Position numbers and translations under genes: made by a program
Source of the DNA: Oscillospiraceae bacterium
GTDB taxonomy: Bacteria; Bacillota; Clostridia; Oscillospirales; Oscillospiraceae
Reading direction: 5' to 3'
NCBI GenBank assembly: GCA_902793285.1
Contig: CADBCV010000024.1
Span: forward strand, 1-49,876
Length of the DNA stretch: 49,876 bases
Part shown: in pieces, positions 23,963-45,685 of the stretch
Position numbering within the stretch: position 1 is the first letter of the stretch
How the letters are laid out: each line of letters begins with the position of its first letter
Notes under the pieces: model-generated
Database searches by the model: none
The model's input: only the letters and a program-made list of their open reading frames with translations
What the model was told of the DNA's origin: nothing

Positions 23963-24015
23963 ATGCGAAGGACAGAAAAAGATGCGCGCGCGATTATGCG
24001 GAAGCTTGTGACAAC

Positions 24016-27514: not shown

Positions 27515-27523
27515 TGCGCAGCT

Positions 27524-29638: not shown

Positions 29639-29682
29639 GGTCATGTTCCCCTTATATAAGAAAATCCCCAAAAAGATAACTT

Positions 29683-29824: not shown

Positions 29825-29889
29825 ACGCGTGAAAGCGGAAGAACCCAACCCAAATATTAGGCGATCATATAGAAAAGGAGTTGTTTTTC

Positions 29890-31785: not shown

Positions 31786-32451
31786 TCAGATCTTCAGACT
31801 GAGATTCTCGCCGCTGATGCCGACGTAGGCGCCGTTTTCCGCCTGGGGGGAGTCGGGGTGGCAGAGCATCCACTTCCCGCGCATCCAGAGGAGCTTCTCT
31901 TCCCCGGGGGCGGCGGTGTTCACCTGCGGCAGGGCCTCGTTCACGCCCTTCTCGAGGACCACGAGGCAGTTGAAGCCCGCCTCCTGAATGCGGCAGGGCG
32001 CAAAGTGGAGCACGCCCGGGAAGACCTCCACCAGCGTCTCCGGCGGCAGATAGAAGCCCACGACCGAGGCGGCGTCCAGATGTCCGTCCCTGAGATCGCC
32101 CTGCAGCGCGAGCAGCAGCACCGCGCCCGTGGTGGAGTAGTTGACCTCGCTGCACTTGTGATACTCCATGGCGTTCATGGTATAGCCGCGCCCGTTGCAG
32201 AAGCCGGACTGGGTGGGCATCTCCCCGAAGGCGACGCGCCGGATATCCGCCATGCAGGGCACAGCCTCCAGCGCCTCCGCAGAGGCATAGTACACGTTCC
32301 CCTCGGCGGGGATGCCGGTGGTGTCCAGGGCCCTGGAGAGGGCCTCGTCCCGCCCGCCGAGCACGCGGCCGTAGGGGGCAAATTCCGGGTCCGTCACCGC
32401 GCAGAGCGGCAGACCGGGGTTCTTTTCACGAAGCATCTGTAAAAGATTCAC
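31786..32451 (-). CDS. DUF4867 family protein, sulfoquinovose cluster
   Basis: A 221-residue cytosolic protein, probably a cupin-like fold (MEYHKCSEVNYSTTGAVLLL, then GFYLPPETLVEVFPGVLHFA). I recognise it as the DUF4867 type, which occurs in Clostridia and Bacilli beside sugar-isomerase and sulfoquinovose genes; to my recollection it accompanies sulfoglycolytic clusters, where its role is unsettled (sugar isomerase or accessory). The start is GTG 32451, with GGAGGTATTCAAGC before it, overlapping the ROK gene stop as GTGA. An upstream extension of the frame exists but runs into the ROK gene. It is the last gene of the leftward operon. It could be a second candidate for the sulfoquinovose-sulfofructose isomerase. 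Confidence 0.7.
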   Translation of the reverse strand: MNLLQMLREKNPGLPLCAVTDPEFAPYGRVLGGRDEALSRALDTTGIPAEGNVYYASAEALEAVPCMADIRRVAFGEMPTQSGFCNGRGYTMNAMEYHKCSEVNYSTTGAVLLLALQGDLRDGHLDAASVVGFYLPPETLVEVFPGVLHFAPCRIQEAGFNCLVVLEKGVNEALPQVNTAAPGEEKLLWMRGKWMLCHPDSPQAENGAYVGISGENLSLKI

Positions 32452-33668
32452 GCTTGAATACCTCCGTTTTGAAAGAAATTCTGTACGGCAAGCAGGCACG
32501 CCGCCTTGTCCTCAAGCTGGTGGTTGAAGCGGCTTTTCTCAATGGTGACCGTGTGGCGCGCGTCCATCCCCTCGCGCATCTCGGTAAAGAAGCGGGCGAG
32601 GAAATAGTCGTTGTCGAACATCCTGCCGTAGAGGACGATCTTGCCCGGGTCGATGAGATAGATCACGGACTTGACCGCGCTGCCGAGGGCGTGCACGGCG
32701 GTGTCCACAATGGTGGCCGCGCCGTTGTCGCCGCTTGCCGCAGCGGTGAACACGTCGGAGAGAGTGGGACGGCCGCTCCCGCCGCCGCAGAGCTGCCAGA
32801 GCACGGGCGTCGCCTCCGGGGAGAGCCTGGCCCCGGCCTCCTCCAGAATGGCGGTGGGGGAGGCGATGGTCTCGAGACAGCCGCTCTTCCCGCAGGAGCA
32901 GGGCTTTCCGCCGCGCCGCACCACGGGGATGTGGCCGATCTCGGAGCACTGGAGCGTCACCCCGTGCCAGATCTGCCCGTCGATGGAGAGCGCCGCGCCG
33001 ATGCCGTCCACGCAGCGCAGGAAAAACTGGGAGCCGCCAGCCTCGTCCTTCGAGAGGAACATCTGCGCCGCGAGGAGCGAGCGCACATTGTTCGACAGGA
33101 TGCACCTGTACCCCGTGCGCGCCTCAAACATTTCGCAGAGGGGGATATCCGCCTCGGCAAAGGCGCCGAAGCTGTCGCTCACGCCGCGGCGGTTTGCGGC
33201 CGTGATGCCGCGCACCGCGATGCCGAGCCCGACGATGCGCTCATCCCGGAGACGGTATTCCCGTCGGAGCTCGAGAAGCCGCGCTGCGAGAGCGTCCACA
33301 GTCTCCTCCGCGGGCGCGCGCACCGGCAGGGGGATCGCCTCGGAGAAGATGACGCTCCCGTCAAGCCAGGTGGCCGAGAGAATGGCCTGCCGCAGATTCA
33401 GCAGTACGCCGAGGGCGCAGAAGGCGTGGGCGTTGAGCTCCACCAAAATCTCGCGCCGGCCGACGGAGCCGCTTGTGACGGCGCAGCCCTCGCGCAGAAG
33501 GCCCTCCTCCAGCATCTCGGCCACGATCTTGGTGATCGCGGGGGGCGTGAGCTTCATGGTCTCCGCAAGGCGCTTTCTCGACATGCTGCCCTTCTCGTGG
33601 AGGATGCGGAGCATCGCGCTGCGGTTGTTGCGCTTGACGCCCATCATGTTGTCGCCTTCAAAGGGCAC
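32448..33668 (-). CDS. ROK-family transcriptional repressor
   Basis: A 406-residue ROK regulator. N-terminal winged helix at ~10-75 (MLRILHEKGSMSRKRLAETM, recognition region LTPPAITKIVAEMLEEG), followed by the ROK sugar-binding fold: GLGIAVRGI near 147, the SEIGHIPV segment near 241 and the zinc motif CSCGKSGCLE near 256-265. Such proteins (XylR, NagC, Mlc) release DNA when a sugar binds. The start is GTG 33668 with GGAGGCTTTCCC; ATG 33647 is an alternative. It lies in the leftward operon, between the DMT transporter and the DUF4867 gene. Likely ligand: sulfoquinovose or a sulfo-sugar intermediate. Likely operators: the inverted repeats at 38134-38156 and 42496-42518. Confidence 0.88.
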   Translation of the reverse strand: MPFEGDNMMGVKRNNRSAMLRILHEKGSMSRKRLAETMKLTPPAITKIVAEMLEEGLLREGCAVTSGSVGRREILVELNAHAFCALGVLLNLRQAILSATWLDGSVIFSEAIPLPVRAPAEETVDALAARLLELRREYRLRDERIVGLGIAVRGITAANRRGVSDSFGAFAEADIPLCEMFEARTGYRCILSNNVRSLLAAQMFLSKDEAGGSQFFLRCVDGIGAALSIDGQIWHGVTLQCSEIGHIPVVRRGGKPCSCGKSGCLETIASPTAILEEAGARLSPEATPVLWQLCGGGSGRPTLSDVFTAAASGDNGAATIVDTAVHALGSAVKSVIYLIDPGKIVLYGRMFDNDYFLARFFTEMREGMDARHTVTIEKSRFNHQLEDKAACLLAVQNFFQNGGIQA

Positions 33669-33688
33669 GGGAAAGCCTCCTTCCGGGT

Positions 33689-34600
33689 TTAACGCGCGGG
33701 CCTGCCCGCGTGGTTGATGCGGCCGCGCTGCAAAATGACGGCGGCCCCGGCCAGCACCACAAGAATGCCGAGCAGCTTCTTCGTTGTCAGCTCCTCATGC
33801 AGGAAGAAGACGCCGATGAAGCAGCTCAAAACCGGCATCAAAAGCAGATAGAGCTTCACGAGCCAGACCTCAAAGTGCCGGAGATTGCGGTAGTAGAAGA
33901 AATAGATGCCCGTCTGGGCAAGTCCGCCGAGCGCGACCAGCCACCAGAAGCCGGGGATGCTGTTGAGAGCATCCGTCCTCAGATCGCCGGCGAATGCCGC
34001 GCTCGTGCCGAAGAGCAGCAGCACGACGAAATTATTATAGTAGGAGATCATGTCCGCGTCCTCGTGGTACTTCTCCTGGGCGGACTTGATGATGAAAGCG
34101 TTTGCGCTCACGCAGGCGGCGGAGAGGAGAAAGTACAGGTCCGTGACGTGCACCTCCATCCCGCCGAAGTCCACCCCCAGCACGAGCAGCACGCCGAAGA
34201 GCATGACCGCGGTGCCGACCCAGTCGGAGATGTAGAGCCGCTTGCGGTAGATGATCACCGTCGCGAGATTCACCATCAGCACGTCCGTCTTCAGAAGAGC
34301 CGTCCCGGTGGAGAGAGAGCCGTTCGCGTAGCCGAGGTTTGCAAACAGATCCAGCAGAAAGCCGAACACGCCGATGAGGACCAGGATGAAGACGGCCTTC
34401 CCCTGGTGGAAGAGCCTTGCAAAGCTCTTATCCAGGAGAAGCTGCACCGTGAGAAACACGAGCGCCGCCGTGCGCAGCAGAAAGCCCGCGAGGAGCGGAG
34501 AGCCCGTCGCGTCCACCACGATCTTGCTGACCGCGTAGTAGATCGACCAGGCGACCACCATCCCCGTGACCATCAGGGTGTATTTCAGATCCTCTCTCAT
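33689..34600 (-). CDS. DMT-superfamily (EamA-type) transporter, possible isethionate exporter
   Basis: A 303-residue protein with ten membrane segments in two EamA halves (residues ~8-140 and ~155-290); the second half has NAFIIKSAQEKYHE and the typical ending FFLHEELTTKKLLGILVVLAG. The family mostly exports small metabolites or amino-acid derivatives. ATG overlaps the preceding dehydrogenase stop by 4 bases. Within a pathway that should end in a C2 sulfonate (isethionate), it is the only candidate exporter in the operon. That assignment is inference from position. Confidence 0.8.
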   Translation of the reverse strand: MREDLKYTLMVTGMVVAWSIYYAVSKIVVDATGSPLLAGFLLRTAALVFLTVQLLLDKSFARLFHQGKAVFILVLIGVFGFLLDLFANLGYANGSLSTGTALLKTDVLMVNLATVIIYRKRLYISDWVGTAVMLFGVLLVLGVDFGGMEVHVTDLYFLLSAACVSANAFIIKSAQEKYHEDADMISYYNNFVVLLLFGTSAAFAGDLRTDALNSIPGFWWLVALGGLAQTGIYFFYYRNLRHFEVWLVKLYLLLMPVLSCFIGVFFLHEELTTKKLLGILVVLAGAAVILQRGRINHAGRPAR

Positions 34601-35694
34601 CGCAGCGCTTCAAACATCTCCCGGAGCTTTTCCTCCGTCATCTGGACGGGGTTGTTGTTCATAAGGGGGTGCGCCGCGCAGTCGCGGCAGAGCTTGTCAA
34701 GGTCCACCGCGCCGAGATCGCCGAGACGGGAGCGCAGCCCCGCCATCTCCTTGAAGGCGCGGATCTTTTCCGCAAGCTCCGCGGTGTCCCGGAGGCCGAC
34801 GGCCTGCGCCAGATACTCCAGGCGCGCGTCCGCGTTGATGCGCACAAAACTGTCCAGCGTGAAAGCGCAGGCCTCGCCGTGGGGCAGGTGGTAATCCTCG
34901 GACAGGGGATAGCTGCACGCGTGGCACGCCGCGGTCTTCGGCAGGGCAAAGCTCAGCCCGCCGAGCAGGGACGCGAGCGCCATCCTGCCGCGGGCTTCCC
35001 GGTTTGCGCCGTCGCGGTAGGCGGTCTCAAGGTTTGCGAGAATGAGGCGCACGGCCTCAATGGCCATGAGATCGGGGATGGGCTGGTGGTTTTTACTCCA
35101 GTAGCCCTCCAGCGCGTGGGCCATGGCGTCAAGGCCGGTGTTCATGGTGGTGCGCTGCGGCACGGACAGCATGAGCAGGGGATCGACGATGGCGGCCTTC
35201 GGCATGAAGGCGGGGTTATTGATGGTCTTCTTCTCCGTGATGTGGGACACGACGGAGACCTGGGTCACCTCGCTGCCGGTGCCGGCGGTGGTGGGCACCG
35301 CGATGATGGTGAGGCGCTCCGCGGGGAAGGGCCGCTCGCCGCGGTAGTACTCGATGGCCTCGTGCCCGTCGAGGGCGATGGCGGCGGCGAATTTCGCCGT
35401 GTCGATGGAGCTGCCGCCCCCGATGCCGATGACGGCGTCGGCCTTGTGCTCGCGCGCAAGGCGGGTGGTCTCAATCACGCCGGAGAGCTGGGGGTTCTGC
35501 TCCACGCCGCCGAAGACGGCGACGATGCGAGGCTCCTTTTCCATGAGCTCCTCGGCCGTCGGGGCAAAGTGCTTGCCGCAGGCGATGACGCAGCGGCTCA
35601 CCTGAAGCTCGTCCAGAACCTTGCCGAGCTCCTGGAACTTCCCCTCGCCGAAGAAGATCTTGACCGGCTGGGCGTAGATGAACTCATTTCCCAT
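34597..35694 (-). CDS. Iron-containing alcohol dehydrogenase, probable sulfoacetaldehyde reductase
   Basis: A 365-residue group III (iron-dependent) alcohol dehydrogenase. NAD-binding GGGSSIDTAKFAAAIA near residue 92-107, PTTAGTGSEVTQVSVV near 132-147, metal ligands in GLDAMAHALEGYW near 185-197 and DYHLPHGEACAF near 258-269. Fe-ADHs of this class include SarD of Bilophila and related enzymes that reduce sulfoacetaldehyde to isethionate with NADH. In this operon it would remove the end product of the transketolase steps and regenerate NAD. ATG 35694 overlaps the upstream isomerase gene by 11 bases, so translation is coupled; an upstream extension has no support. Substrate is inferred from the cluster. 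Confidence 0.8.
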   Translation of the reverse strand: MGNEFIYAQPVKIFFGEGKFQELGKVLDELQVSRCVIACGKHFAPTAEELMEKEPRIVAVFGGVEQNPQLSGVIETTRLAREHKADAVIGIGGGSSIDTAKFAAAIALDGHEAIEYYRGERPFPAERLTIIAVPTTAGTGSEVTQVSVVSHITEKKTINNPAFMPKAAIVDPLLMLSVPQRTTMNTGLDAMAHALEGYWSKNHQPIPDLMAIEAVRLILANLETAYRDGANREARGRMALASLLGGLSFALPKTAACHACSYPLSEDYHLPHGEACAFTLDSFVRINADARLEYLAQAVGLRDTAELAEKIRAFKEMAGLRSRLGDLGAVDLDKLCRDCAAHPLMNNNPVQMTEEKLREMFEALR

Positions 35695-36160
35695 AGCAGG
35701 CGTCCTCAATGGCGGCGACCTTGTCGGCGAACTTGTGCATGTTCTCCGCGCGCCAATCCTCCAGATCCTGGCACCAGTCGGTGGCGAGGAAGGTCTTCAC
35801 CATCTCGACGGCCATCTCGGGCCCGACGATCCAGCCGCCCATGCAGAGGACCTTGGCATTGTTGATGGCGCGGGCCATCTTCGCGGAGTAGACACCCTCG
35901 CACGCGACGGCGTGCACGCCCTTGTACTTGTTTGCCACAACGCTCATGCCGGCACCGGTGCCGCAGATCAGCACCGCGCGGTCATAGGTCCCGTCCTGCA
36001 CCAGGGGGGCGACCCTGGAGGCCACCTCGTAATAGGGGTGCACCTCGTCGAGCGTCACGGTGCCGAGATCGTCAAACTCCACGCCGGCCTCGGTGAGGTA
36101 GGCCCGGATGGCTTCCTTCGCGGAGAAGCCGGATTTATCACTGCCGATGGCGATTTTCAT
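35684..36160 (-). CDS. RpiB/LacA/LacB family sugar isomerase, probable 4-deoxy-4-sulfoerythrose isomerase
   Basis: A 158-residue isomerase of the ribose-5-phosphate isomerase B fold. Seen: MKIAIGSDKSGF at the start, DDLGTVTLDEVHPYYEVA near 31-48, and the active-site ICGTGAGMSVVANKYKGV near 65-82. The segment that reads HNDAN in phosphate-sugar RpiB enzymes is INNAK here, so a phosphate-sugar substrate is doubtful. The transketolase route of sulfoquinovose breakdown uses an RpiB-like enzyme (SqwI) to turn sulfo-erythrose into sulfo-erythrulose, which fits. TTGGAGGATATTTCCT precedes ATG 36160. A repeat separates it from the transketolase genes upstream. Confidence 0.78.
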   Translation of the reverse strand: MKIAIGSDKSGFSAKEAIRAYLTEAGVEFDDLGTVTLDEVHPYYEVASRVAPLVQDGTYDRAVLICGTGAGMSVVANKYKGVHAVACEGVYSAKMARAINNAKVLCMGGWIVGPEMAVEMVKTFLATDWCQDLEDWRAENMHKFADKVAAIEDACYGK

Positions 36161-36227
36161 AGGAAATATCCTCCAAATCATTGTCAGTTTTAAATGGCGT
36201 TCGTTTTTGCGATGTCATGAGATTGCT

Positions 36228-36312
36228 GTCATTCTGAGGAGCGCAGCGACGAAGAATCCCGAAAGTATTGCAGGCAATCATGAGATCCTTCGCTGACGCT
36301 CAGGATGACACG
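36228..36312. repeat. TGTCATTCTGAGGAG interspersed element
   Basis: One copy of the family at 2463 and 14014, with inverted ends (TGTCATTCTGAGGAGCGCAG and CGCTCAGGATGACA), inserted between the isomerase and transketolase genes of the leftward operon. Confidence 0.8.
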
Positions 36313-36316
36313 AACA

Positions 36317-36347
36317 TAAGGCCTCCCCCGATTGGGGAAGGCCCGTT
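36317..36347 (-). terminator. Hairpin after the transketolase pair
   Basis: AAGGCCTCCCC / GGGGAAGGCC stem with one mismatch. The T-run (TTTTTT) lies on the plus strand; on the minus strand the tail is only TTATGTT. It may lower rather than stop transcription into the isomerase gene. Confidence 0.5.
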
Positions 36348-36349
36348 TT

Positions 36350-37273
36350 TTACTTGAGCGCCGCGGCCTTCTTCGCGGCGGCGACGATATCCTCCGTGCG
36401 CATACCCAGCACCTCGCGCAGGTAGGGCATTTTGCCGACCTCGCCGAAGCGGTCCTGCACGCCGACGGCGACGGCGGGGATCTTCTCCTGGGCCAGGGCC
36501 TCGAGCACGGCGGAGTGCAGGCCGCCGATGACGTTGTGGTTCTCCACAGTCAGCACGGCGCCGGTCTTGCGGGCGGAGGCGATGACGGTCTCGCGGTCGA
36601 TGGGCTTGATGGTGTGCACGTTCACGACCTCGCAGTCGATGCCCTCAGCCGCGAGCTCCGCGGCGGCGTCGAGCACGTCCTTGGTCAGGAAACCGGACAC
36701 GAAGATCGTGAGATCCTTGCCCTCGCGCAGGGTGTCAGCCTTGAAGAGGTCGAACTTGTAGTCGGCGGGGAAGACGTCGGGCAGGGTCTTGCGGAAAAGG
36801 CGCATGTACACGGGGCCCTCGTAGGCGGCCAGAGCGGGCATGGCCGCGCGAAGCTGCACGGCGTCCACGGGCTCAAAGATGACCATGCCGGGGATGGAGC
36901 GGATGACGCCCACGTCCTCCATGCTCATGTGGGTGCCGCCGTTGAGCTCGGCCGAGATGCCGGGGTCGGTGCCGACGATTTTGACGTTCTGTTTGGCGTA
37001 GGAGATGGAGATCGCGATCTGGTCGCAGATGCGTCTCGTGGCGAAGGGCGTGAAGCTCTCGATCCAGGGCTTAAAGCCGTAGCTTGCAAGGCCGGCCGCG
37101 ATGGAGGCCATGTCCTGCTCGGCCACGCCGCAGTCAAACATCTGCTTCGGGAAGCGCTCATAGAGTTTGCGGGTGCCGCTGGCCTTGGAGAGGTCAGCGT
37201 CCAGGACGCACACGTGGCGGTCCTGCTCCATCATTTCAGCCAGGCATTCGGCGTAAACTGCTCTCATTTCCAT
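36350..37273 (-). CDS. Transketolase C-terminal subunit, sulfoquinovose cluster
   Basis: A 307-residue split-transketolase subunit holding the pyrimidine-binding and C-terminal domains. Seen: DADLSKASGTRKLYERFP near 24-41, the catalytic Glu in CGVAEQDMASIAAGLA near 48-63, and the C-terminal domain with GLHSAVLEALAQEKI near 264. Partner is the N-terminal subunit just upstream (gap 3 bases). The pair could be an ordinary transketolase, but in this cluster it matches the two-gene SqwG-SqwH enzyme that cleaves sulfofructose and then sulfo-erythrulose, passing two-carbon units to glyceraldehyde-3-phosphate. GGGGGAATAAAAA precedes the ATG and contains the partner's stop. Confidence 0.88.
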   Translation of the reverse strand: MEMRAVYAECLAEMMEQDRHVCVLDADLSKASGTRKLYERFPKQMFDCGVAEQDMASIAAGLASYGFKPWIESFTPFATRRICDQIAISISYAKQNVKIVGTDPGISAELNGGTHMSMEDVGVIRSIPGMVIFEPVDAVQLRAAMPALAAYEGPVYMRLFRKTLPDVFPADYKFDLFKADTLREGKDLTIFVSGFLTKDVLDAAAELAAEGIDCEVVNVHTIKPIDRETVIASARKTGAVLTVENHNVIGGLHSAVLEALAQEKIPAVAVGVQDRFGEVGKMPYLREVLGMRTEDIVAAAKKAAALK

Positions 37274-37276
37274 TTT

Positions 37277-38101
37277 TTATTCCCCCCTGATCTCCGCGAT
37301 GGCGGCCTTGGCCTGCTCTTCGTTGACGTTGGTGTTGTGGTTGCCCGCGCCGAGGTCGACGATCCACTGGACGCCGCAGCCCTTGAGCGTGTTGAGGATC
37401 ACCATGGTGGGCCTGCCGCTGCCGCGCATGGTCTTGGCCTCTTTGACGGCGGCGGAGACCTGCTCCACATCGTTGCCGTCCTTGACCTCGATCACGTTCC
37501 AGCCGAAGGCCCTCCACTTGTCGGCGAGGGGCGCGATGTCGTTGACCTCGGCGACGCTGCCGTCGATCTGCAGCTTGTTGTAGTCGGTGAAGCCGATGAG
37601 GTTGTCGAGCTTCTTCGCGGCGGCGAACATGGCGGCCTCCCAGATCTGGCCCTCCTGGCTCTCGCCGTCCCCGATGAGGGTGAAGATCGTGGCGCCGTCC
37701 TCCTCCATCTTGGAGCCGAGCGCAACGCCCACCGCGCAGGAGAAGCCCTGGCCGAGGGAGCCGGTGGTCATGTCGATGCCGGTGGTGCGGTTCATGTCGC
37801 AGTGGCTGGGCAGGTTCGTGCCGCCTTGGTTGAGGGTGAGCAGCTCCTTGCGGTCAAAGTAGCCGCGGTTTGCGAGCGTCGCGTACACCGCGGGGCCCGC
37901 GTGGCCCTTGGAGCAGACAAAGCGGTCGCGCCCGGGCATTTTGGGGTTTGCGGGGTCGATGTGCATCTCCTCAAAGTAGAGTACCGCGAGCAGCTCCGTC
38001 ACAGACAGGCAGCCGCCGATGTGCCCCACGCCTAGATGACCGATGCTGGTCATGATGTCGCAGCGGATATCCTTGCAGACTTCTTTCAGATCGTAGCTCA
38101 A
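37277..38101 (-). CDS. Transketolase N-terminal subunit, sulfoquinovose cluster
   Basis: A 274-residue thiamine-diphosphate-binding subunit. Seen: HLGVGHIGGCLSVTELL near 22-38 (family GHxGG), CSKGHAGPAVYATLANRG near 62-79, TTGSLGQGFSCAVGVALGSK near 115-134, and the ThDP/metal motif GDGESQEGQIWEA ... DYNKLQIDG near 146-178. Together with the downstream subunit it makes a full transketolase. The start is TTG 38101, with GGGAGGAAATCAAA before it. It is the first gene of the leftward operon; its promoter and a likely ROK operator lie at 38134-38189. Confidence 0.9.
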   Translation of the reverse strand: MSYDLKEVCKDIRCDIMTSIGHLGVGHIGGCLSVTELLAVLYFEEMHIDPANPKMPGRDRFVCSKGHAGPAVYATLANRGYFDRKELLTLNQGGTNLPSHCDMNRTTGIDMTTGSLGQGFSCAVGVALGSKMEEDGATIFTLIGDGESQEGQIWEAAMFAAAKKLDNLIGFTDYNKLQIDGSVAEVNDIAPLADKWRAFGWNVIEVKDGNDVEQVSAAVKEAKTMRGSGRPTMVILNTLKGCGVQWIVDLGAGNHNTNVNEEQAKAAIAEIRGE

Positions 38102-38133
38102 TTTGATTTCCTCCCAACAAGAAGAATATTGTC

Positions 38134-38156
38134 ATTGGTTAAAAGGTCTAACTAAT
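38134..38156. promoter_or_regulatory. Candidate ROK operator at the transketolase promoter
   Basis: A 23-bp inverted repeat: ATTGGTTA, 7-base spacer (AAAGGTC), TAACTAAT; 7 of 8 positions of the arms are complementary. It covers the predicted start of transcription of the leftward operon. The arms resemble the TTAGTT/AACTAA core of XylR-type ROK operators. A site of the same 8-7-8 layout is at 42496-42518. Confidence 0.65.
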
Positions 38157-38160
38157 GCAC

Positions 38161-38189
38161 AGTGTAGTCTCTGATATCCTCTTTGTCAA
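38161..38189 (-). promoter_or_regulatory. Promoter of the leftward sulfoquinovose operon
   Basis: Minus strand: -35 TTGACA (38184-38189), 17-base spacer, -10 TACACT (38161-38166). Start expected near 38154. Confidence 0.88.
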
Positions 38190-38230
38190 TAGGGAAAACA
38201 AAAAAACCGGGCCTTCTTTTCACGCAGACC

Positions 38231-38259
38231 TTGACATCTGTCCCCGGGCGGACTATGAT
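38231..38259 (+). promoter_or_regulatory. Promoter of the rightward sulfoquinovose operon
   Basis: -35 TTGACA (38231-38236), 17-base spacer, -10 TATGAT (38254-38259). A weaker inverted repeat (ATTATT at 38258 and AATAAT at 38274-38279) overlaps the -10 and the start and could be a diverged operator. Confidence 0.88.
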
Positions 38260-38311
38260 TATTCACGCTGTTAAATAATTTCCCTTTCAATAATTCGACA
38301 GGAGGATCAAC

Positions 38312-39685
38312 ATGAGCTTTACACCTGTTTATATTCCGGTGGGCGTCCCCACCTTCCATCTCGAGAGCGCCCAGGATCAGTTCGAGCGCTCCGTCAAGCT
38401 CCTGCGCGCGGTGGATGAGCGCTTCGTCGTCCCCGGGGAGATGCTGCTGAGTCTCGACAAGCTCCGCGATTACATGCAGGGGCTGCAGCCGGACCTCATC
38501 GTGTTCCAGAACCTGACCTTCGCAAACGCCGCCTACATGTCCGAGGTGCTGCGCCGCTTCGACTGCCCGGTCCTCCTCTGGACCCTGCGGGAGCCCGTCA
38601 TCGACGGGGGCCGCCTGCGCCTCAACTCCCTGACCGGGGCGTACTCGGCTGCCAACACCCTCCGCGCCTTTGACGACAGGCCCTTCTCCTACGTCTTCGG
38701 CGCGCCGGAGGAGGAAGAGACCGTCAAGGCCGTGAGGGCGAGCGTCGCCGCGGCCCGGGTGAAGAAAAACATGCGCTCTCTGCGCCTTGCCGCCGTGGGC
38801 CACACGCCCCAGGGCTTCGGCTTCGGCCGCGCGCTCGACAGCGAGCTCATGAGCACCTTCGGCGTGGAGCTTGAGGCCATCGAGGCGCGCGAGCTTATCG
38901 ACGAGGCCAAAAAGCTCACGGACGCGGAGCTTGCCGCCGCCGTCGCGGATACCGAGAAGGCCACCGCCGGGCTTGACAAGACGCCCGAGAACAATATCCT
39001 GGACCACGCCCGCCTTCTCAACGCCTACAGGAACTATGTGAAGACCCACAACATCGGGGCGCTGGCCTCCCGCTGCTGGCCCGATTTCTTCACCGCCTTC
39101 GGCACCCCGGTCTGCACGGTCCTCTCCATGCTCAATGACGAGGGGGTCGCCGCCGCCTGCGAGGCCGATATCTACGGGGCGCTGTCCATGTGGATCGGGA
39201 TGCAGCTCTCCGGCGAGCCTGTCTTCTTCGGCGACCCCGTTTCCCTCGACGAGGGGGAGAACACCGTCACCTTCTGGCACTGCGGCGCGGCCGCCTGTTC
39301 GCTCGCCCGGCACGATACCGGCGCTACAGTCGGCGTGCACCCCAACCGCAAGATCGGCCCCGCCATGGACTTCGGCTGCGAGGCTTTCCCCGAGGCCACC
39401 ATCTTCCGCATCGGGCGCGAGCCGGACGGCTCCTTCCGCTTCTTCATCGCGGAGGGCGAGGCGCTCGATAAGCCCAAGCAGTTCATCGGCACCTCCATCG
39501 TGGTCCGCACCTTCTGCGACAGCCGCGGCATGGTGGAGCAGAGCGTGCGCGACGGGTTCGAGCCCCACTTTGTCGTCATCAAGGGCCTGCACGCGAGAAC
39601 GCTCGAGACCCTTGCCGAGATGTACGGCTTTGATGTGTACCGCTACACGGTGGACGCCGGGCTCTGCCGCGGAAACGATCAATGA
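38312..39685 (+). CDS. FucI/AraA-fold sugar isomerase, probable sulfoquinovose isomerase
   Basis: A 457-residue protein of the L-fucose/L-arabinose isomerase-like family. N-terminal domain ~1-170 (DLIVFQNLTFANAAYMSEVL), then VKTHNIGALASRCWPDF near 245-261, the metal-binding EGVAAACEADIYGAL near 276-291 (Glu284), TFWHCGAAACSL near 320 and GLHARTLETLAEMYG near 428-442 with a His ligand. These enzymes interconvert aldoses and ketoses using Mn2+. In this operon the expected reaction is sulfoquinovose to sulfofructose. GACAGGAGGATCAAC precedes the ATG. Its stop overlaps the YesL-like gene by 4 bases. The sulfo-sugar substrate is inferred from context. Confidence 0.8.
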   Translation: MSFTPVYIPVGVPTFHLESAQDQFERSVKLLRAVDERFVVPGEMLLSLDKLRDYMQGLQPDLIVFQNLTFANAAYMSEVLRRFDCPVLLWTLREPVIDGGRLRLNSLTGAYSAANTLRAFDDRPFSYVFGAPEEEETVKAVRASVAAARVKKNMRSLRLAAVGHTPQGFGFGRALDSELMSTFGVELEAIEARELIDEAKKLTDAELAAAVADTEKATAGLDKTPENNILDHARLLNAYRNYVKTHNIGALASRCWPDFFTAFGTPVCTVLSMLNDEGVAAACEADIYGALSMWIGMQLSGEPVFFGDPVSLDEGENTVTFWHCGAAACSLARHDTGATVGVHPNRKIGPAMDFGCEAFPEATIFRIGREPDGSFRFFIAEGEALDKPKQFIGTSIVVRTFCDSRGMVEQSVRDGFEPHFVVIKGLHARTLETLAEMYGFDVYRYTVDAGLCRGNDQ

Positions 39686-40299
39686 AGGAGTCGAAGCTCC
39701 ACGCGGTACTCACGGCGCTCATCGACATCGTGTGGCTCGGCATCCTCTGGGCGCTCTGCTCCCTGCCCGTCATCACGCTGGGGGCCGCGTCCGCCGCGCT
39801 CTACTACAGCATGGTCAAGTGCGTGCGCCACGATTACCCGGAGCCGACCCACGCCTTCTTCCGCGCCTTTCGCATGAATTTCCGGGGGGCGACGCTTTTG
39901 TGGCTGGTCTTCCTCGCGGCGCTCTGCGTCGGCGTTCTGGACATCGTCGCCTTCTCGCGGATGGGCGTTGAGGCCGGGAGCTTTCTCCACGTCTTCTCCC
40001 GCGTCCTGCTGCTGCCGCTGCCGCTGCTCGCGGTCTGGAGCTTTGCCTATCTCTCGCGCTTTGACGATCCGGTGAAGACCGTCCTGCGCTTCGGGGTCTA
40101 TCTCGCGGTCCGAAACTGGCGGCAGAGCCTTCTGTTGCTCTTCGAGCTTGCGCTTGTGGCGCTCATCTCCTGGCTCCTGCCGCAGATCGCGCCCCTCCTG
40201 CCCGGGGCCCTCTGTCTTTTGATGAGCTTTTCGATCGAGCCCGCCCTGCGCGCCCTCTCCGCCGGCCAGGGCAGAGCCGACGACTGGTATAATGAATAA
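39682..40299 (+). CDS. YesL-like (DUF624) membrane protein
   Basis: A 205-residue protein with five membrane segments; opening WLGILWALCSLPVITLGAAS and YSMVKCVRHDYPEP are typical of the DUF624/YesL family, found beside sugar ABC importers and glycoside hydrolases in Bacillota. Biochemical role unknown. ATGA overlap with the isomerase gene and 12 bases to the sulfoquinovosidase gene show that all three are one transcript. Confidence 0.85.
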   Translation: MKESKLHAVLTALIDIVWLGILWALCSLPVITLGAASAALYYSMVKCVRHDYPEPTHAFFRAFRMNFRGATLLWLVFLAALCVGVLDIVAFSRMGVEAGSFLHVFSRVLLLPLPLLAVWSFAYLSRFDDPVKTVLRFGVYLAVRNWRQSLLLLFELALVALISWLLPQIAPLLPGALCLLMSFSIEPALRALSAGQGRADDWYNE

Positions 40300-40311
40300 G
40301 GAGTATCGACC

Positions 40312-42306
40312 ATGTTCCGATTTGATTATCCCGCAGAAGGCTCCTTCACCCTCACCCTTGACGGGCGGGTGATCCTCCGCCACAGCGGGGAGGAGCCTGC
40401 GCTTTTTCTCGGCCGCGGCCGGGAGGATATCCGCATGTTCCGCGGTAACTTCACCATCCGAGACCGCGTGGACGAGCGCCTTGCCCTCCGCTTTCTCGGC
40501 GCGGACGGCGACAGCCTCCGCTTCGGAAGCCCGGCGCTCGAGGGGGAGTACCGCCTGCGCTTTTTTGAGCAGGACGGGCTTCTCCATCTGGACGGCGCCT
40601 GTGAGGATACGCGCGTTAACCGCCTGTGGCTGCGCCTCGCGGCGGAGGCGGGCGAGCATGTGACCGGCGGGGGAGAGCAGTTTTCCGCCCTCGACCTGCG
40701 CGGGAAGCTCTACCCCATCTGGACGCGGGAGCAGGGCGTGGGCCGCAACAAGCTCACGGAGGTCACCCGCCTTGCCGACGCCCTGGACGGCAGCGGCGGC
40801 GATTACCACACCACCTTCTTCCCGCAGCCGACCTTCGTCTCCTCCCGCCTTTATTTTGCCCACCTTATGAACTATGAATATGCCGAGCTTGACTTCCGCG
40901 AGACAGGGTATCATGAAATCACCCTCTGGACCCCGGCGCTGCGCCTGGTCCTCGGCGCGGGCGAGGATTACCCGGCGCTTTTGGAGAAGCTCACGGGCCT
41001 TCTCGGGCGGCAGCCGAGACTTCCCGCCTGGGCGATGAAGGGCCTCTGGCTCGGCGTCCAGGGCGGCACGGTGCGCGCCTGCCGGATGGCGGAGCGCTGC
41101 CGCAAGGGCGGCGTGGACATCTCCGCCGTCTGGATTCAGGACTGGGAGGGCAAACGCGTCACCTCCTTCGGAAAGCGCCTCCAGTGGGACTGGCGCTGGA
41201 ACCGGGAGCTCTACCCGGAGCTTGACAAGCTCATCGCCGGGGACCCCTCGATGGCCTGGATGGGCTACATCAACCCCTACCTCGTGGAGGGCGGCGTCCT
41301 CTTCCGGGAGGCGGCGGAGCGCGGCTACTTTGTCAAACGCGCGGACGGCACGGACTATCTCTTTGACTTCGGTGAATACGACTGCGGCGTGGTGGACCTC
41401 ACCCTGCCCGCGGCCTTCGACTGGTACAAAAACGTTATCAAAACAAACCTCATCGGCCTCGGCTTCAAGGGCTGGATGGCGGACTTCGGCGAATACCTCC
41501 CGGCGGACGCGGTCTGCTGCGGCGGCAGCGGCCTTGCCCTCCACAACGCCTGGCCCATGCTCTGGGCAAAGTGCAACCGCGAGGCTGTGGAGGAGGCCGG
41601 CAAGCTCGGCGAGTGCGTATTCTTCATGCGCGCCGGGGCCGCCGGGAGCCAGCGCTGGGCGACGCTCATCTGGGCGGGGGACCAGTGCGTGGACTGGTCT
41701 GCGGACGACGGGCTTCCCTCCGTGGTCACGGCGGCCCTCACCCTCGGCATGAGCGGCTATGGCCTGCACACCTGCGACGCGGGCGGCTACACCACGCTCT
41801 TCCACCTGCACCGGGATGAGGAGCTTCTGCTGCGCTGGCTGGAATTCGCCTGCTTCACGCCCGTCATGCGCACGCATGAGGGGAACCGCCCCGACTCCAA
41901 TGTCCAGCTCTACGACAGCGAGCGCGTGATCGCGGCCTCGGCACGGCTGGTAAGTTTACATAATACGATTTTACCCTATCTCGAAGCCTGTGTGGAGGAA
42001 AACAGCGCGCGCGGCATCCCCGTGATGCGCCCCCTGTTCTTCGCGGAACCCGACGCGCCGGAGGCGTGGGACCGGGACCTCTTCAGCTATCTCCTGGGGC
42101 CGGATGTGCTGGTCGCCCCGGTGGTGGAGCCGGGCGCGGATACGCGCGCTCTCTGGCTGCCGGCGGGGGATTGGGTCCATCTCTGGAGCGGCGCGGTCTG
42201 TGCGGGCGGCCGCCATACGGTCGACGCGCCCCTCGGAAAGCCGCCGGTGTTCTATCGCGCAGGCTCGCCCTGGACCTCGCTCTTCGAGCGCCTGCGGGAG
42301 CGCTGA
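40312..42306 (+). CDS. yihQ: Sulfoquinovosidase, glycoside hydrolase family 31
   Basis: A 664-residue GH31 alpha-glycosidase that frees sulfoquinovose from sulfolipid glycosides. Compared from memory with E. coli YihQ, long blocks are near-identical in order and spacing: WIQDWEGKRVTSFGKR (residues 274-289), GWMADFGEYLP, RAGAAGSQRW, WAGDQCVDWS, CDAGGYTTLF and THEGNRP, ending GKPPVFYRA. Catalytic nucleophile Asp391 and acid/base Asp457 are present, and so are the sulfonate-pocket residues Gln276, Arg289, Trp292 and Tyr493 (Q288, R301, W304 and Y508 in YihQ). Ordinary alpha-glucosidases lack this set. No signal peptide, so intact glycoside must be imported. GGAGTATCGACC precedes the ATG. Confidence 0.95.
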   Translation: MFRFDYPAEGSFTLTLDGRVILRHSGEEPALFLGRGREDIRMFRGNFTIRDRVDERLALRFLGADGDSLRFGSPALEGEYRLRFFEQDGLLHLDGACEDTRVNRLWLRLAAEAGEHVTGGGEQFSALDLRGKLYPIWTREQGVGRNKLTEVTRLADALDGSGGDYHTTFFPQPTFVSSRLYFAHLMNYEYAELDFRETGYHEITLWTPALRLVLGAGEDYPALLEKLTGLLGRQPRLPAWAMKGLWLGVQGGTVRACRMAERCRKGGVDISAVWIQDWEGKRVTSFGKRLQWDWRWNRELYPELDKLIAGDPSMAWMGYINPYLVEGGVLFREAAERGYFVKRADGTDYLFDFGEYDCGVVDLTLPAAFDWYKNVIKTNLIGLGFKGWMADFGEYLPADAVCCGGSGLALHNAWPMLWAKCNREAVEEAGKLGECVFFMRAGAAGSQRWATLIWAGDQCVDWSADDGLPSVVTAALTLGMSGYGLHTCDAGGYTTLFHLHRDEELLLRWLEFACFTPVMRTHEGNRPDSNVQLYDSERVIAASARLVSLHNTILPYLEACVEENSARGIPVMRPLFFAEPDAPEAWDRDLFSYLLGPDVLVAPVVEPGADTRALWLPAGDWVHLWSGAVCAGGRHTVDAPLGKPPVFYRAGSPWTSLFERLRER

Positions 42307-42333
42307 GCGCGTTCAAATTCGTCAACATTCACA

Positions 42334-42372
42334 AAACGGCGACCCACATTTTGGCGGGCCGCCGTTTCCTTC
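42334..42372 (+). terminator. Terminator after the sulfoquinovosidase gene
   Basis: AAACGGCG, 18-base loop, CGCCGTTT then CCTTCG; moderate. It separates the enzyme operon from the ABC importer, which has its own promoter. Confidence 0.6.
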
Positions 42373-42429
42373 GTGCAAAAGCTACAAAAAGTCAAAGCGA
42401 AAATCTACAAGATCACGGGGGAAAAGGGC

Positions 42430-42458
42430 TTTACAAAGGGGGAGGGGGTCACTATAAT
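42430..42458 (+). promoter_or_regulatory. Promoter of the ABC importer operon
   Basis: -35 TTTACA (42430-42435), 17-base spacer, -10 TATAAT (42453-42458). Flanked by an 8-bp inverted pair, CTACAAGA (42405-42412) and TCTTGTAG (42462-42469). Confidence 0.85.
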
Positions 42459-42495
42459 GTTTCTTGTAGCTATCAAGGGCTTTTTTGTAAAAGCA

Positions 42496-42518
42496 ATTGA
42501 TTAAACCTGTTAATTAAA
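42496..42518. promoter_or_regulatory. Candidate ROK operator before the ABC importer
   Basis: ATTGATTA, 7-base spacer (AACCTGT), TAATTAAA. Same 8-7-8 layout as the site at 38134 and 7 of 8 bases equal in the left arm. It lies in the leader, between the start of transcription and the binding-protein gene. Confidence 0.55.
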
Positions 42519-42535
42519 ATCAAAGGAGAATGAAC

Positions 42536-43807
42536 ATGAAAAAAACCATCGCCCTGCTTCTGACGCTCGTCATGGTGTTCGGCCTGGTCGCCTCCATGCC
42601 CGCGTACGCTGACGACGAGATCGTCATCAACTTCCCCAGCATCTGGGTCGGCACCGACTCCAAGGCCGCCTACATGTCCCAGCTTATTGAGAACTTCAAC
42701 GCCGAGAACGCCGGCGCTATCAAGGTCGTCGTCGAAGAGCAGACCGACTATCAGGCCTACCGCGACAAGATCCGCACCACCATCACCACCGGCTCCGCGC
42801 CCGACATCTGCATCCTTGACACCACCTTCGACATCAAGGCGTATGCGGAATCCGGCAAGTTCATGGACCTGACCCCCTATCTGGACGAGGGCTGGGGCAA
42901 TGATTTTACCGACGGTGCGTTCGACGCCTGGAGTGTGGACGGCAAGGTCTCCATCCTCCCCTTTGAGAGTGCTGTCTTCACCCCCATCTACAATGCCAAA
43001 CTCCTCGCCGAGTGCGGCTGGGATCACTTCCCCGCCACCTATGACGAGTTCTTCCAGATGTGCAAGGACGTCAAGGCCAAGGGCTTCAACGCCATGGGCC
43101 AGATGGCCGGCGACAATGCCTGGTCCTCCATGCTCTGGTACTCCCTGATCGCGGAAGCCATCGGCGGCAAGGACGTCTATGCCGACGGGCTTGATAACCC
43201 CGCCTTCGTTGAGGCCGCCAAGGTCCTCAAGGAGATGTACAGCTACACCTTCGACGGCGCCGTCTCCGCTGCCGCCTCCGACGTGAACGGCCACTTCCTC
43301 GCCCGCGACACCGTCGTCTACCTCAACGGCCCCTGGTGGATCGCAAACTTCTACAAAGAAGATAACGCCGTTGACGGCGTCCTCCTCGCCGACGACTGCG
43401 AGGTCGCTGTGAATCCCACGTATGAAGGCGGCCTCGGCGAGGGCGGCCTCGTCACCACCGTGCAGGGCTTCCTGGCCGCTGCCAAGCAGAGCGACCCCGC
43501 AAAGGAAGAGGCGGTTGTGAAGTTCCTCAAGTACATCACCGATCCTCAGCACGTCTCTGAGCTCGCCCTCTCTTCCGGCGCCATGTTCTTCGTGAAGTAC
43601 ACCCCGTCCCCCGACACCTCCCTCATCTCCCAGAAGGTCACCGAGGTTGCGAACAACGCCGCCTTCACCGTCCTGCACGTGAACGGCGCCTTCCCGACCG
43701 CCTTCTCCACCGAGTTCCCCGCCGCGCTCTCCGCCCTGGTCCTTGGCCAGGTTGACGAGCAGGGCTTCGTCGATCAGCTCCAGACCGCCATCGAACTGGC
43801 CGAGTAA
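42536..43807 (+). CDS. ABC sugar-binding protein, probable sulfoquinovose/sulfoquinovosyl glycerol binder
   Basis: A 423-residue extracellular solute-binding protein of family 1 (CUT1 importers). Signal peptide MKKTIALLLTLVMVFGLVAS ending AYADDE; cleavage looks like ordinary signal peptidase I and no lipobox Cys is present, which is unusual for a Gram-positive binding protein. Typical features follow: VVVEEQTDYQAYRDKIRTTI near 62, SAPDICILDTTFDI near 85, and LDEGWGNDFTDGAF near 114. AAAGGAGAATGAAC precedes ATG 42536; the ATG two codons earlier overlaps that site. Has its own promoter and is followed by an internal terminator, which would make more binding protein than permease. Confidence 0.88.
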   Translation: MKKTIALLLTLVMVFGLVASMPAYADDEIVINFPSIWVGTDSKAAYMSQLIENFNAENAGAIKVVVEEQTDYQAYRDKIRTTITTGSAPDICILDTTFDIKAYAESGKFMDLTPYLDEGWGNDFTDGAFDAWSVDGKVSILPFESAVFTPIYNAKLLAECGWDHFPATYDEFFQMCKDVKAKGFNAMGQMAGDNAWSSMLWYSLIAEAIGGKDVYADGLDNPAFVEAAKVLKEMYSYTFDGAVSAAASDVNGHFLARDTVVYLNGPWWIANFYKEDNAVDGVLLADDCEVAVNPTYEGGLGEGGLVTTVQGFLAAAKQSDPAKEEAVVKFLKYITDPQHVSELALSSGAMFFVKYTPSPDTSLISQKVTEVANNAAFTVLHVNGAFPTAFSTEFPAALSALVLGQVDEQGFVDQLQTAIELAE

Positions 43808-43824
43808 TACGCCTGATCCGCTCT

Positions 43825-43858
43825 ACAGGCTGCGGTGAAAACCGCAGCCTGTTCTTTC
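43825..43858 (+). terminator. Internal terminator between binding protein and permeases
   Basis: Perfect 12-bp stem (ACAGGCTGCGGT and complement), GAAA tetraloop, then TCTTTCCT. Partial termination here would set the ratio of binding protein to permease. Confidence 0.85.
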
Positions 43859-43907
43859 CTCAATTGTGAAGCGTGTTCGCAATTGAACAGTATTAGGAGG
43901 TGGCTCA

Positions 43908-44828
43908 TTGAAACTGGAACGTTCTGACAGAGGACCGCTGCTGGCCTTCCTGCTGCCCGCGATCATCATGATGGTGGTCTTCTTTGTCATCCCTGTCATC
44001 TATGTCGTCGCGGTGAGCTTTCTGAAATGGAACGGCATCTCCGCGCCGATCGTCAGGGGCTTTCGCAACTATCTGCTGCTCTATAAGGACAAGGCTTTCG
44101 CCCGCTCCATCCTCAACAACGTGATCTGGGCGCTGGTGGCGGGCTTCATCCAGGTGCCGCTCGCCATGGTCATGGCGATCATTCTCTCCCGCAAGCCGAA
44201 GGGCTGGAAGTTCTTCCGCACGGTCTATTTCTTCCCCCAGGTCATCTCCGGCATTGCGCTCGCAACCCTGTGGCGCGCCATCTACAGCGCGGACACCGGC
44301 CTTCTGAACGGCCTTCTGCGCGCCATCGGTCTCGGGGACGCGGCGCGGGACTGGCTCGGCACCATAGAGACGGCCTTCCCGGCGGTGCTGATCTACTGGG
44401 TTTTTTACATCGGCTATTACATGGTCATCATGATGGCCGACATCACCACCATCGACACCTCCTATTATGAAGCGGCGGTCATCGACGGGGCCTCCGATTT
44501 CCAGCAGGCGATCTACATCACGATCCCGCTTATCAAGAGGACCTCGCTTCTCACCTGCATCACGCTTGCAAGCGTCATGGGCCTTCGGCAGTTCGAGCAG
44601 GTCTACATGCTCACAAACGGCGGCCCCGCGAACACCACGTCCACCATCGTTCTGTACATGTATAAAAAGATGCAGGACTCCAACTACGGCCTTGCCAGCG
44701 CCTCGGCGGTGATCCTCATCATCGTCGGCGTCATCTTCATCGTCACGATCCGCAAGCTCTTTGAGGGCCGCGGCGACAAGGCGGCGCAGCGCAAGGCGAT
44801 CAAAAAGGCAAGGAGGGCGCTGAAATGA
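43908..44828 (+). CDS. ABC sugar importer permease 1
   Basis: A 306-residue MalF/UgpA-type permease with six membrane segments (first at ~12-38: LLAFLLPAIIMMVVFFVIPV). The EAA loop that docks the ATPase is YYEAAVIDGASDFQQAIYIT near 186-205, followed by IPLIKRT. The start is TTG with TAGGAGGTGGCTCA before it. Its stop overlaps permease 2 by 4 bases (ATGA). Partner of the binding protein upstream; no ATPase gene follows. Confidence 0.92.
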   Translation: MKLERSDRGPLLAFLLPAIIMMVVFFVIPVIYVVAVSFLKWNGISAPIVRGFRNYLLLYKDKAFARSILNNVIWALVAGFIQVPLAMVMAIILSRKPKGWKFFRTVYFFPQVISGIALATLWRAIYSADTGLLNGLLRAIGLGDAARDWLGTIETAFPAVLIYWVFYIGYYMVIMMADITTIDTSYYEAAVIDGASDFQQAIYITIPLIKRTSLLTCITLASVMGLRQFEQVYMLTNGGPANTTSTIVLYMYKKMQDSNYGLASASAVILIIVGVIFIVTIRKLFEGRGDKAAQRKAIKKARRALK

Positions 44829-45685
44829 GTGAAAACAAGATCCATGCCCCCCTCCACGGGAAGGAGCTGATCCTCGCGATCCTGCGCTGGATCCTGATCA
44901 TCTTCTTCGCGGTCTACACGCTCTTTCCCCTCATCTGGCTGATCCTCTCCTCGCTCAAGACAAACTTTGAGTTTCAGGCCATGTCGCCCTTCGCCCTGCC
45001 CAAGGTGCCCCAGTGGCAGAACTATGTGAACGCGCTCAAGGTAGCGGGCCTCGGCCGGATGCTCTTAAACTCCGTGATCGTGGGCCTTGCCGCCACGGCG
45101 GTCAACGTCATCATCGCGAGCATGGGCGCCTACTGCATCTCCCGCTTCCGCTTCAAGGGGCGCGAGCGGATCTTCACGCTCTTCACGGCGGGCATCCTCG
45201 TCCCCCTGAACGCCCTCATGGTGCCGTACTTCGTCATCATCAACAAGCTCGGCCTCTACAACACCTACGGCGGCATGATCCTTCTCTACTGCGCCATCGG
45301 CATCCCCATGTCCACCTTCCTCATCCGCGGCCTCATGGACTCCGTGCCCATGGAGCTGGAGGAGGCGGCCTACATCGACGGCTGCGGCTTCTTCGGGCGC
45401 TTCTTCTATCTGATCCTGCCTCTGAGCCGCACGGGCATCGTCACCGCCGCGACCTTTGAGTTTCTGACCTGCTGGAACGAATTTGTCTTCGCAAACCTCA
45501 TCGTCTCCTCGGAGAAGCTCCGCACGGTCCAGGTCGGCATCCGCTACTTTACAAACCAGTTCTCGACGGACTATGTCTCCATGTACGCCGCCATCGTCAT
45601 CTCCATCATCCCCTCCATCCTGGGCTACATCCTCTTCCAGGAGCAGATCATCGCCGGCATGACGAGCGGCGCCGTCAAGGGATAA
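44825..45685 (+). CDS. ABC sugar importer permease 2
   Basis: A 286-residue MalG/UgpE-type permease with six membrane segments. EAA loop LEEAAYIDGCGFFGRFFYLI near 178-197, then LPLSRTGIV. FTAGILVPLNALMVPYFVII and the final LFQEQIIAGMTSGAVKG are typical of the family. AAGGAGGGCGCTGAA lies before the ATG. Last gene of the importer; a strong terminator follows at 45794. The ATPase must come from elsewhere, most simply the UgpC-type protein encoded at 16664-17845. Confidence 0.93.
   Translation: MSENKIHAPLHGKELILAILRWILIIFFAVYTLFPLIWLILSSLKTNFEFQAMSPFALPKVPQWQNYVNALKVAGLGRMLLNSVIVGLAATAVNVIIASMGAYCISRFRFKGRERIFTLFTAGILVPLNALMVPYFVIINKLGLYNTYGGMILLYCAIGIPMSTFLIRGLMDSVPMELEEAAYIDGCGFFGRFFYLILPLSRTGIVTAATFEFLTCWNEFVFANLIVSSEKLRTVQVGIRYFTNQFSTDYVSMYAAIVISIIPSILGYILFQEQIIAGMTSGAVKG

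Follow-up and report, generated by a model that had tools for sequence, protein, structure and literature searches.

The locus among described systems

Plants are rich in the sulfur sugar sulfoquinovose (SQ), whose breakdown supplies sulfide formation in gut and rumen. The present analysis concerns contig CADBCV010000024.1 (C24) of the draft genome GCA_902793285.1 from an Oscillospiraceae bacterium. The contig was analysed over its 49,876 bp, here called the window, and carries two divergent gene blocks between 31786 and 45685. They very probably constitute a ROK-regulated sulfo-transketolase (sulfo-TK) locus for SQ in a rumen-type member of the family. The closest published systems are cited here from excerpts of the respective papers. 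In cow rumen, sulfo-TK genes of Ca. Limivicinus (Oscillospiraceae), Caproiciproducens and Sphaerochaetaceae were transcribed during SQ degradation, and isethionate was formed in the microcosms (PMC13219744). The clusters of Ca. Limivicinus, two Caproiciproducens and a Sphaerochaetaceae sp. share with the window the sulfo-TK route, which is predicted to lead to isethionate in the window too, and the setting in rumen Oscillospiraceae. One legend common to the four clusters names YihQ, SftI, SqwGH, SqwI, SqwF, SqwE, SmoE, SmoFGH and SftX. They differ from the window in that the excerpted text contains no YesL and describes neither a ROK operator nor SqwI residues.

The bifurcated cluster of Faecalicatena sp. 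DSM22707, and via it that of Clostridium sp. MSTE9, resembles the locus in its SQ isomerase, split transketolase and sulfoerythrulose (SEu) isomerase (PMC11659671). A DMT permease, a three-gene ATP-binding cassette (ABC) importer, a repressor and a candidate 'SQ mutarotase' are further common elements. Faecalicatena differs by its own transaldolases and an NAD+-dependent type of sulfoquinovosidase, whereas the window has a YihQ and no transaldolase in the locus. Escherichia coli YihQ (5aed; yih locus, NC_000913) has the same active site residues as the window enzyme and falls into the same clade. E. coli differs in the importer YihO, the isomerase YihS and the sulfo-Embden-Meyerhof-Parnas route.

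A preliminary description of the window, made from the sequence, had considered the gene combination new. This did not hold. DUF4867 beside sulfo-TK genes was reported in 2025 (PMC11968277), and ABC, DMT and repressor genes in the Faecalicatena cluster in 2024 (PMC11659671). For Ca. Limivicinus of the rumen, the sulfo-TK pathway was published in 2026, and the legend shared by the four clusters includes SmoFGH and SftX (PMC13219744). The locus is ordinary in kind and another member of the described rumen guild. New leads are a candidate operator, a residue signature of SqwI and a module of a second GH31 type with a GPH symporter.

Gene content and conservation

Pfam and NCBIfam scans found every gene that the preliminary description had listed. 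All items were correct, and the families were matched far beyond chance (e.g., E = 7e-221 for the GH31 enzyme against YihQ). The left block encodes, in this order, the N and C parts of a split transketolase, an RpiB-like isomerase, an Fe-alcohol dehydrogenase, an EamA/DMT transporter, a ROK regulator and DUF4867. The right block starts after a divergent promoter region of 210 bp and encodes a FucI/AraA-type isomerase, DUF624/YesL, a GH31 enzyme, a solute-binding protein (SBP) and two CUT1 permeases (Table 1). The host genome has 2.36 Mb and is 79.5% complete.

Relatives were collected by an isomerase-alignment search with one genome per species. It yielded 582 pattern matches and 467 relatives; the best 80 loci were kept, and 41 of them are long loci of at least 20 kb each. 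Titles of the 80 relatives name Clostridia, Clostridiales, Eubacteriales, Oscillospiraceae and Ruminococcaceae, with a few metagenome-assembled genomes (MAGs) from Lachnospiraceae or Bacillota. The stated sources are ruminant gut sites: goat, sheep, cattle, yak, water buffalo and roe deer. Many other relatives bear RUG numbers, which we take to stand for rumen uncultured genomes. Two further samples comprised 300 genomes of the host's own family and, class-wide, 391 genomes including the host. The isomerase is present in 16 of the 300 family genomes and in 4 of 6 listed as own or same genus.

Synteny in the long loci reveals a constant core: isomerase, SqwG, SqwH and SqwI occur in 41/41, followed by the Fe-alcohol dehydrogenase and the DMT transporter (counts in Table 1). 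ROK is encoded in 26, SftX in 20, canonical GH31 (at least 45% identity) in 19, YesL in 15 and the MalG-like CUT1 permease (at least 70%) in 14.

Probable core enzymes of the sulfo-transketolase pathway

The assignment to the sulfo-TK pathway, already made in the preliminary description, was supported by residue tests for GH31 and SqwI, by trees for GH31 and transketolase and by synteny. The PDB match of the GH31 enzyme cited above is E. coli YihQ (5aed), and model NF007746 is matched with 849 bits (cut-off 553). In the alignment with YihQ, the residue set that had been called complete was indeed found with all seven positions: Q262, Q288, R301, W304 and Y508 (QQRWY) and both catalytic aspartates, D405 and D472 (E. 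coli numbering). In YihQ, Q288, R301, W304 and Y508 bind the sulfonate. In a tree of 41 rows, one clade (100/94) united E. coli YihQ with every one of the 18 QQRWY rows, and the window copy belongs to it.

The RpiB-like protein has lysine in place of H10, isoleucine in place of H99 and tryptophan in place of R110, compared with RpiB of E. coli and the host's own RpiB, which is about 41% identical to it. This signature is found in 68/68 rows (the window, 66 of the 80 loci and the divergent locus L032), all of which retain C66, N100 and R137. In RpiB, H99 opens the sugar ring and arginine residues bind the phosphate. Loss of the ring-opening histidine fits the proposed substrate, because 4-deoxy-4-sulfoerythrose has a sulfonate on C4 and cannot close a furanose ring. 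Judged by these residues, SqwI is an RpiB homologue suited to an acyclic tetrose that carries a sulfonate. Its score is below the cut-off of the rpiB equivalog (125.9 of 138.65). A description of the signature was not found in a literature search covering parts of the papers. R133L was dropped as a further signature position; the host's own RpiB has a glutamate at 133 and the position is not diagnostic.

The host encodes another split transketolase, presumed to serve the pentose phosphate pathway, with 42% identity to SqwG (N part) and 36% to SqwH (C part). In a tree of 54 rows, window SqwH, 20 further sulfo-locus rows and L198 formed a clade of 22 rows (100/99). L198 was labelled 'other', yet it is the transketolase adjoining the isomerase of G036. 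Outside this sulfo-TK clade are the second split transketolase of the host and 22 split transketolases from family genomes, which form a clade of their own. The clustering check suggested in the preliminary description thus set the window transketolase apart from both. The tree calculation gave warnings about long branches and about a bootstrap that had not settled.

For the FucI/AraA-type isomerase, NF048012 was the only NCBIfam match, and nearly the whole model was covered. Identities to the isomerases of relatives are 62-91%. A search against PDB sequences gave no match for the isomerase. NF048012 may be narrow, because the Faecalicatena isomerase has 65% and 32% identity to its counterparts in MSTE9 and SOS1 (PMC11659671).

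Several results weigh against the pathway assignment. The isomerase score of 401 bits is below the curated cut-off of 700. NF007746 alone does not separate sulfoquinovosidases, as an altered second type of GH31 passes it too (567.7-612.7). The SqwI candidate passes the general RpiB models NF004051 (136 of 135) and TIGR00689 (119.7 of 88.3). In the transketolase tree, the nearest row outside the sulfo clade is L200, a transketolase for which no sulfo locus is known, and the sulfo-labelled transketolase of L032 (46%) is located outside the main sulfo clade. Every specific model for the Fe-alcohol dehydrogenase remained below its cut-off: the best NCBIfam model was PsrA, a phosphonate-linked Fe-alcohol dehydrogenase (212.6 bits of 423.7), and the sulfoacetaldehyde reductase model SarD reached 169.8 of 700. 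YesL scored below the cut-off of 160 for the MusI model NF052431. Among the best 60 of 62 PDB matches of the SBP, no entry is described by its name as binding SQ-glycerol.

The pass of two general RpiB models would also suit an ordinary pentose or tetrose phosphate locus next to a coincidentally YihQ-like GH31 enzyme, as would the best PDB relatives: an ordinary split transketolase (6yaj) for the C part and RpiB for the RpiB-like protein. We consider this scarcely credible in view of QQRWY in the GH31 enzyme, the SftI model as sole match of the isomerase, the constant SqwI signature, the transketolase in the sulfo-locus clade and a DUF4867 near that of the Bacillus megaterium sulfofructose transaldolase (sulfo-SFT) locus.

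L032 (G275) is a divergent SQ-isomerase locus (63%), and its SqwI bears the SqwI signature.

SftX/DUF4867 matched PDB 9gyy, the SftX-SqvB structure (PMC11968277), with E = 8e-45. The two proteins belong to one fold family and have the same 2His-2Glu metal site, whose ligands E112, H114, E118 and H165 are kept in 30/30 rows including the window. In the published assays described for the family, no activity was detected, and DUF4867 adjoins sulfo-TK genes in 15 of 127 members of its cluster (PMC11968277). In the long loci, the presence of SftX is independent of CUT1 (p = 1), of the second-type GH31 (p = 0.35) and of canonical GH31 (p = 1). Because of this independence of importer and GH31 type, SftX more likely serves the core, with SQ or sulfofructose as substrate, than uptake, which agrees with PMC11968277.

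The reactions in the host are predicted from gene content, residue sets, clade membership and synteny. SQ glycosides would enter via the SBP and the CUT1 permease pair with YesL as accessory, energised by a shared UgpC-type ATPase. YihQ would release SQ, which SftI would convert to sulfofructose. SqwGH would then remove a C2 unit twice, yielding xylulose 5-phosphate, and between the two cuts SqwI would isomerise sulfoerythrose to sulfoerythrulose. SftX may act on a core intermediate. The remaining sulfoacetaldehyde would be reduced to isethionate by the Fe-alcohol dehydrogenase, and isethionate would leave the cell, perhaps by the DMT protein.

Table 1. Features of the sulfo-TK locus and the window ATPase; positions refer to the window, long loci are relatives of at least 20 kb.
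Feature	Position	Strand	Basis
UgpC/MsmX-type ATPase	16412-17845 (true start probably near 16745)	+	PF00005, OB_MalK, TOBE_2; NF008653
SftX/DUF4867 cupin metalloprotein	31786-32499 (start codon uncertain)	-	PF16161 204.7 bits
ROK-family regulator (helix-turn-helix (HTH) and ROK domain)	32448-33668	-	PF00480, MarR HTH
EamA/DMT transporter, candidate isethionate exporter	33689-34600	-	PF00892; 35/41 long loci
Fe-alcohol dehydrogenase, candidate sulfoacetaldehyde reductase SqwF	34597-35709	-	PF00465; 39/41 long loci
RpiB-type isomerase, SqwI (predicted sulfoerythrose isomerase)	35684-36181	-	PF02502, residue signature
Split transketolase C part, SqwH	36350-37273	-	PF02779, PF02780; clade
Split transketolase N part, SqwG	37277-38101	-	PF00456
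Candidate ROK operator, TTGGTTAA-N5-CTAACTAA	38135-38155	.	divergent sqwG/sftI promoter region
Predicted SQ isomerase SftI/SqvD (FucI/AraA type)	38312-39685	+	NF048012 401 bits
YesL/DUF624, MusI-like membrane protein, probable importer accessory	39682-40299	+	PF04854
GH31 sulfoquinovosidase YihQ (predicted)	40312-42306	+	NF007746, residue set, clade
Candidate ROK operator, TTGATTAA-N5-TTAATTAA	42497-42517	.	in front of SBP gene
CUT1 solute-binding protein	42530-43807	+	PF13416, PF01547
CUT1 permease (MalF-like)	43908-44828	+	PF00528
CUT1 permease (MalG-like)	44825-45685	+	PF00528

Predicted fate of sulfoacetaldehyde and isethionate

The fermentation of SQ to excreted isethionate by the host is a fair reading of the gene content. 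Two published variants, oxidation of sulfoacetaldehyde to sulfoacetate by SqwD/SqwKL and partial diversion by a transaldolase in a bifurcated pathway, would give other products beside or in place of isethionate. The Fe-alcohol dehydrogenase is missing in two of the 41 long relatives (L100, L120). Either variant is quite improbable for the window: its block includes the Fe-alcohol dehydrogenase, and a CoA-acylating dehydrogenase, a CoA ligase and a transaldolase were absent among locus genes and scanned neighbours, the part of the genome that was searched. L100 and L120, sulfo-TK loci without Fe-alcohol dehydrogenase and DMT genes, possibly represent a sulfoacetate variant.

Isethionate remains the predicted product of the window locus, and the DMT protein is perhaps its exporter. 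A TauE-family gene above cut-off is located away from the locus (G000:C30:23644-24351) and possibly codes for an SqwE-type exporter. The host may also use isethionate further by an IslA-type enzyme, because the glycyl-radical family had one marginal match in its 79.5% complete genome (23.8 bits, 28.7 with in-frame neighbours; cut-off 24.3). Bilophila had been suggested as a partner consuming the isethionate. The closest named loci are mostly from ruminant MAGs, and in the rumen the partner reported is Ca. Mailhella instead of Bilophila (PMC13219744).

Predicted uptake of sulfoquinovose glycosides

The predicted substrates of the SBP and CUT1 importer are SQ glycosides. YesL exceeds the Pfam cut-off for DUF624 and has 92.7 bits with the MusI model NF052431. 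In the long loci, YesL and CUT1 permeases co-occur: both are present in 13 loci, YesL alone in 2, CUT1 alone in 1 and neither in 25 (p = 8e-8), which supports a role of YesL in the CUT1 importer. YesL is not named in the excerpts of PMC11659671, PMC13219744 and PMC11968277, and a literature search on YesL/MusI gave nothing useful.

The locus block has no ATPase gene. Shared or multitask ATPases such as MsmX and MsmK are known, and these systems are alike in having a CUT1 importer without its own ATPase and UgpC-type genes elsewhere (PMC7658222). They differ in that the pairing of importer and ATPase in the host is a prediction. Five OB_MalK matches occur in the host genome. With NF008653 (UgpC, cut-off 432), three ATPases were scored and two pass: 441.2 for the window copy, 486.9 for C10 and 426.9 for C2. 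The window ATPase gene is flanked by those of an M20 peptidase and a sugar transferase and is about 25 kb away from the importer genes; the C10 ATPase has an AraC regulator as neighbour and a GH65 gene close by. No permease or SBP like those of the window was found around the window ATPase (12000-24000) or in the stretch around the C10 ATPase. The importer probably draws on a shared UgpC-type ATPase whose gene is outside the block, with the window copy as one candidate. The missing ATPase gene was considered as a puzzle and rejected as such: importers lacking an ATPase of their own are usual, and the host has two ATPases above the UgpC cut-off with no window-like permease next to them.

Probable regulation by the ROK protein

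The ROK protein matches the NagC and Mlc models far below cut-off. From intergenic DNA of the window and nine relatives, a palindrome of 21 bp was derived, TTRRTTAA-N5-YTAAYYAA. With at most one mismatch, it occurs exactly twice in the window and in none of 100 shuffles. The scan with at most two mismatches across the 80 loci gave 54 matches in the divergent intergenic regions (22,105 bp), 18 before the SBP gene (3,566 bp) and 17 in all remaining sequence (1,318,898 bp). Each of the 17 is at most about 200 bp away from one end of a locus gene.

The palindrome coincides with the regulator. Among the 45 loci of at least 17 kb with a readable divergent region, both ROK gene and site are present in 26, ROK alone in 2, neither in 17 and the site alone in none (p = 1.6e-10). 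Without the nine loci used in the derivation, the counts are 21, 1, 16 and 0. Among all 73 readable loci, 34 have both, 24 neither, 2 ROK alone and 13 the site alone. Two points speak against the palindrome as ROK operator. The 13 loci with the site and without a ROK gene in view are all shorter than 17 kb, and their ROK gene may lie past the end. The association is confounded by shared descent, which weakens the p values, and the scan covered the window and the 80 loci.

The palindrome could instead be a promoter element or belong to a different regulator, with the ROK protein acting via other DNA. Conservation of AT-rich sites close to promoters can have other causes, and the site is missing in 2 of the 28 long loci with ROK. 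Its absence from all 17 long loci without ROK, and the lack of matches away from locus genes in the 80 loci, make this alternative unlikely. The 21-bp palindrome is probably the ROK operator. From its two positions, in the sqwG/sftI region and before the SBP gene, the ROK protein would repress the blocks. SQ or a metabolite of SQ would lift the repression.

A second GH31 clade in sulfoquinovose loci

A different GH31 with less than 45% identity to the window copy was present in 17 of the 41 long loci. This second type has R301 replaced by glutamine and Y508 by phenylalanine in 26/26 rows (E. coli YihQ numbering), whereas both residues are kept in 28/28 other GH31 rows and the window copy. In the GH31 tree it forms a clade of its own, into which a 49% copy with RPQWP (G290) falls as well. 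Of 30 places with the second-type GH31, on 27 of the 80 loci and three other contigs, 23 have a GPH symporter adjoining it on the same strand, for example L104:12147-15572 and L117:11380-15115.

In the family sample, the second type (at least 64% identity) occurs in 10 of 300 genomes, each of which belongs to the 16 that carry the SQ isomerase; the G290 copy is left out of this count. Assuming independence, the probability is 5.7e-15 by genomes and 4.9e-9 by genera (7 of 106). In G252 the second-type GH31 is located on a different contig than the SQ locus, far from contig ends. For G004 and G062 the distance between the two genes cannot be judged, as the isomerase lies close to the end of a contig. 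The assembled part of the host genome (79.5% complete) has no copy. Class-wide, the second-GH31 query matched 7 of 391 genomes at E<=1e-100 and the isomerase 5 of 391 at E<=1e-60, with the host in both. Copies from outside the family have QQQWF in two of three G408 copies, QQQWY in G521 and QQRWY in the other five; none of them joins the rumen QQQWF clade in the tree. A family genome without an isomerase match, G181, encodes a GH31 with QQQWY, so glutamine at 301 alone is not tied to SQ.

Some Ca. Limivicinus carry two yihQ copies, and several yihQ clades were reported (PMC13219744); the excerpts contain no mention of the residue changes of the second type. A literature search for the motif names QQRWY and KERWY gave only unrelated words among the matches listed. 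We tentatively propose, at somewhat less than even confidence, that rumen Oscillospiraceae combine an invariable sulfo-TK core with front ends that can be exchanged: either YesL, canonical YihQ and CUT1, or the GPH symporter with the second GH31 clade.

Other features of the window

The gap between sqwI and sqwH contains an interspersed repeat of about 85 bp (36225-36314), which is outside the pathway. It has 54 further matches across the host genome, mostly 77-89% identical and on some contigs several side by side; within the window it also occurs at 14015-14098 and 14110-14193. As RNA, the repeat folds into a long hairpin (z = -2.7). A lysine riboswitch (15548-15696, minus strand, 85.9 bits) overlaps the called start of the M20 peptidase open reading frame. 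Beside the locus, two long open reading frames on the plus strand, 27494-29659 and 29881-31413, have no Pfam match; the latter encodes a proline/glutamate/threonine repeat.

Implications for sulfoquinovose degradation in the rumen

With the SqwI signature and the candidate ROK operator, simple sequence tests become available by which true sulfo-TK loci, and the way they are regulated, can be recognised in uncultured genomes. If the proposal of exchangeable front ends is true, the second GH31 would be another kind of SQ-linked glycosidase, which recognises the sulfonate in a different way or acts on another SQ-bearing substrate. Counts of 'yihQ' would then mix two activities. For work on enzymes, the clade of altered GH31 proteins is a concrete target.

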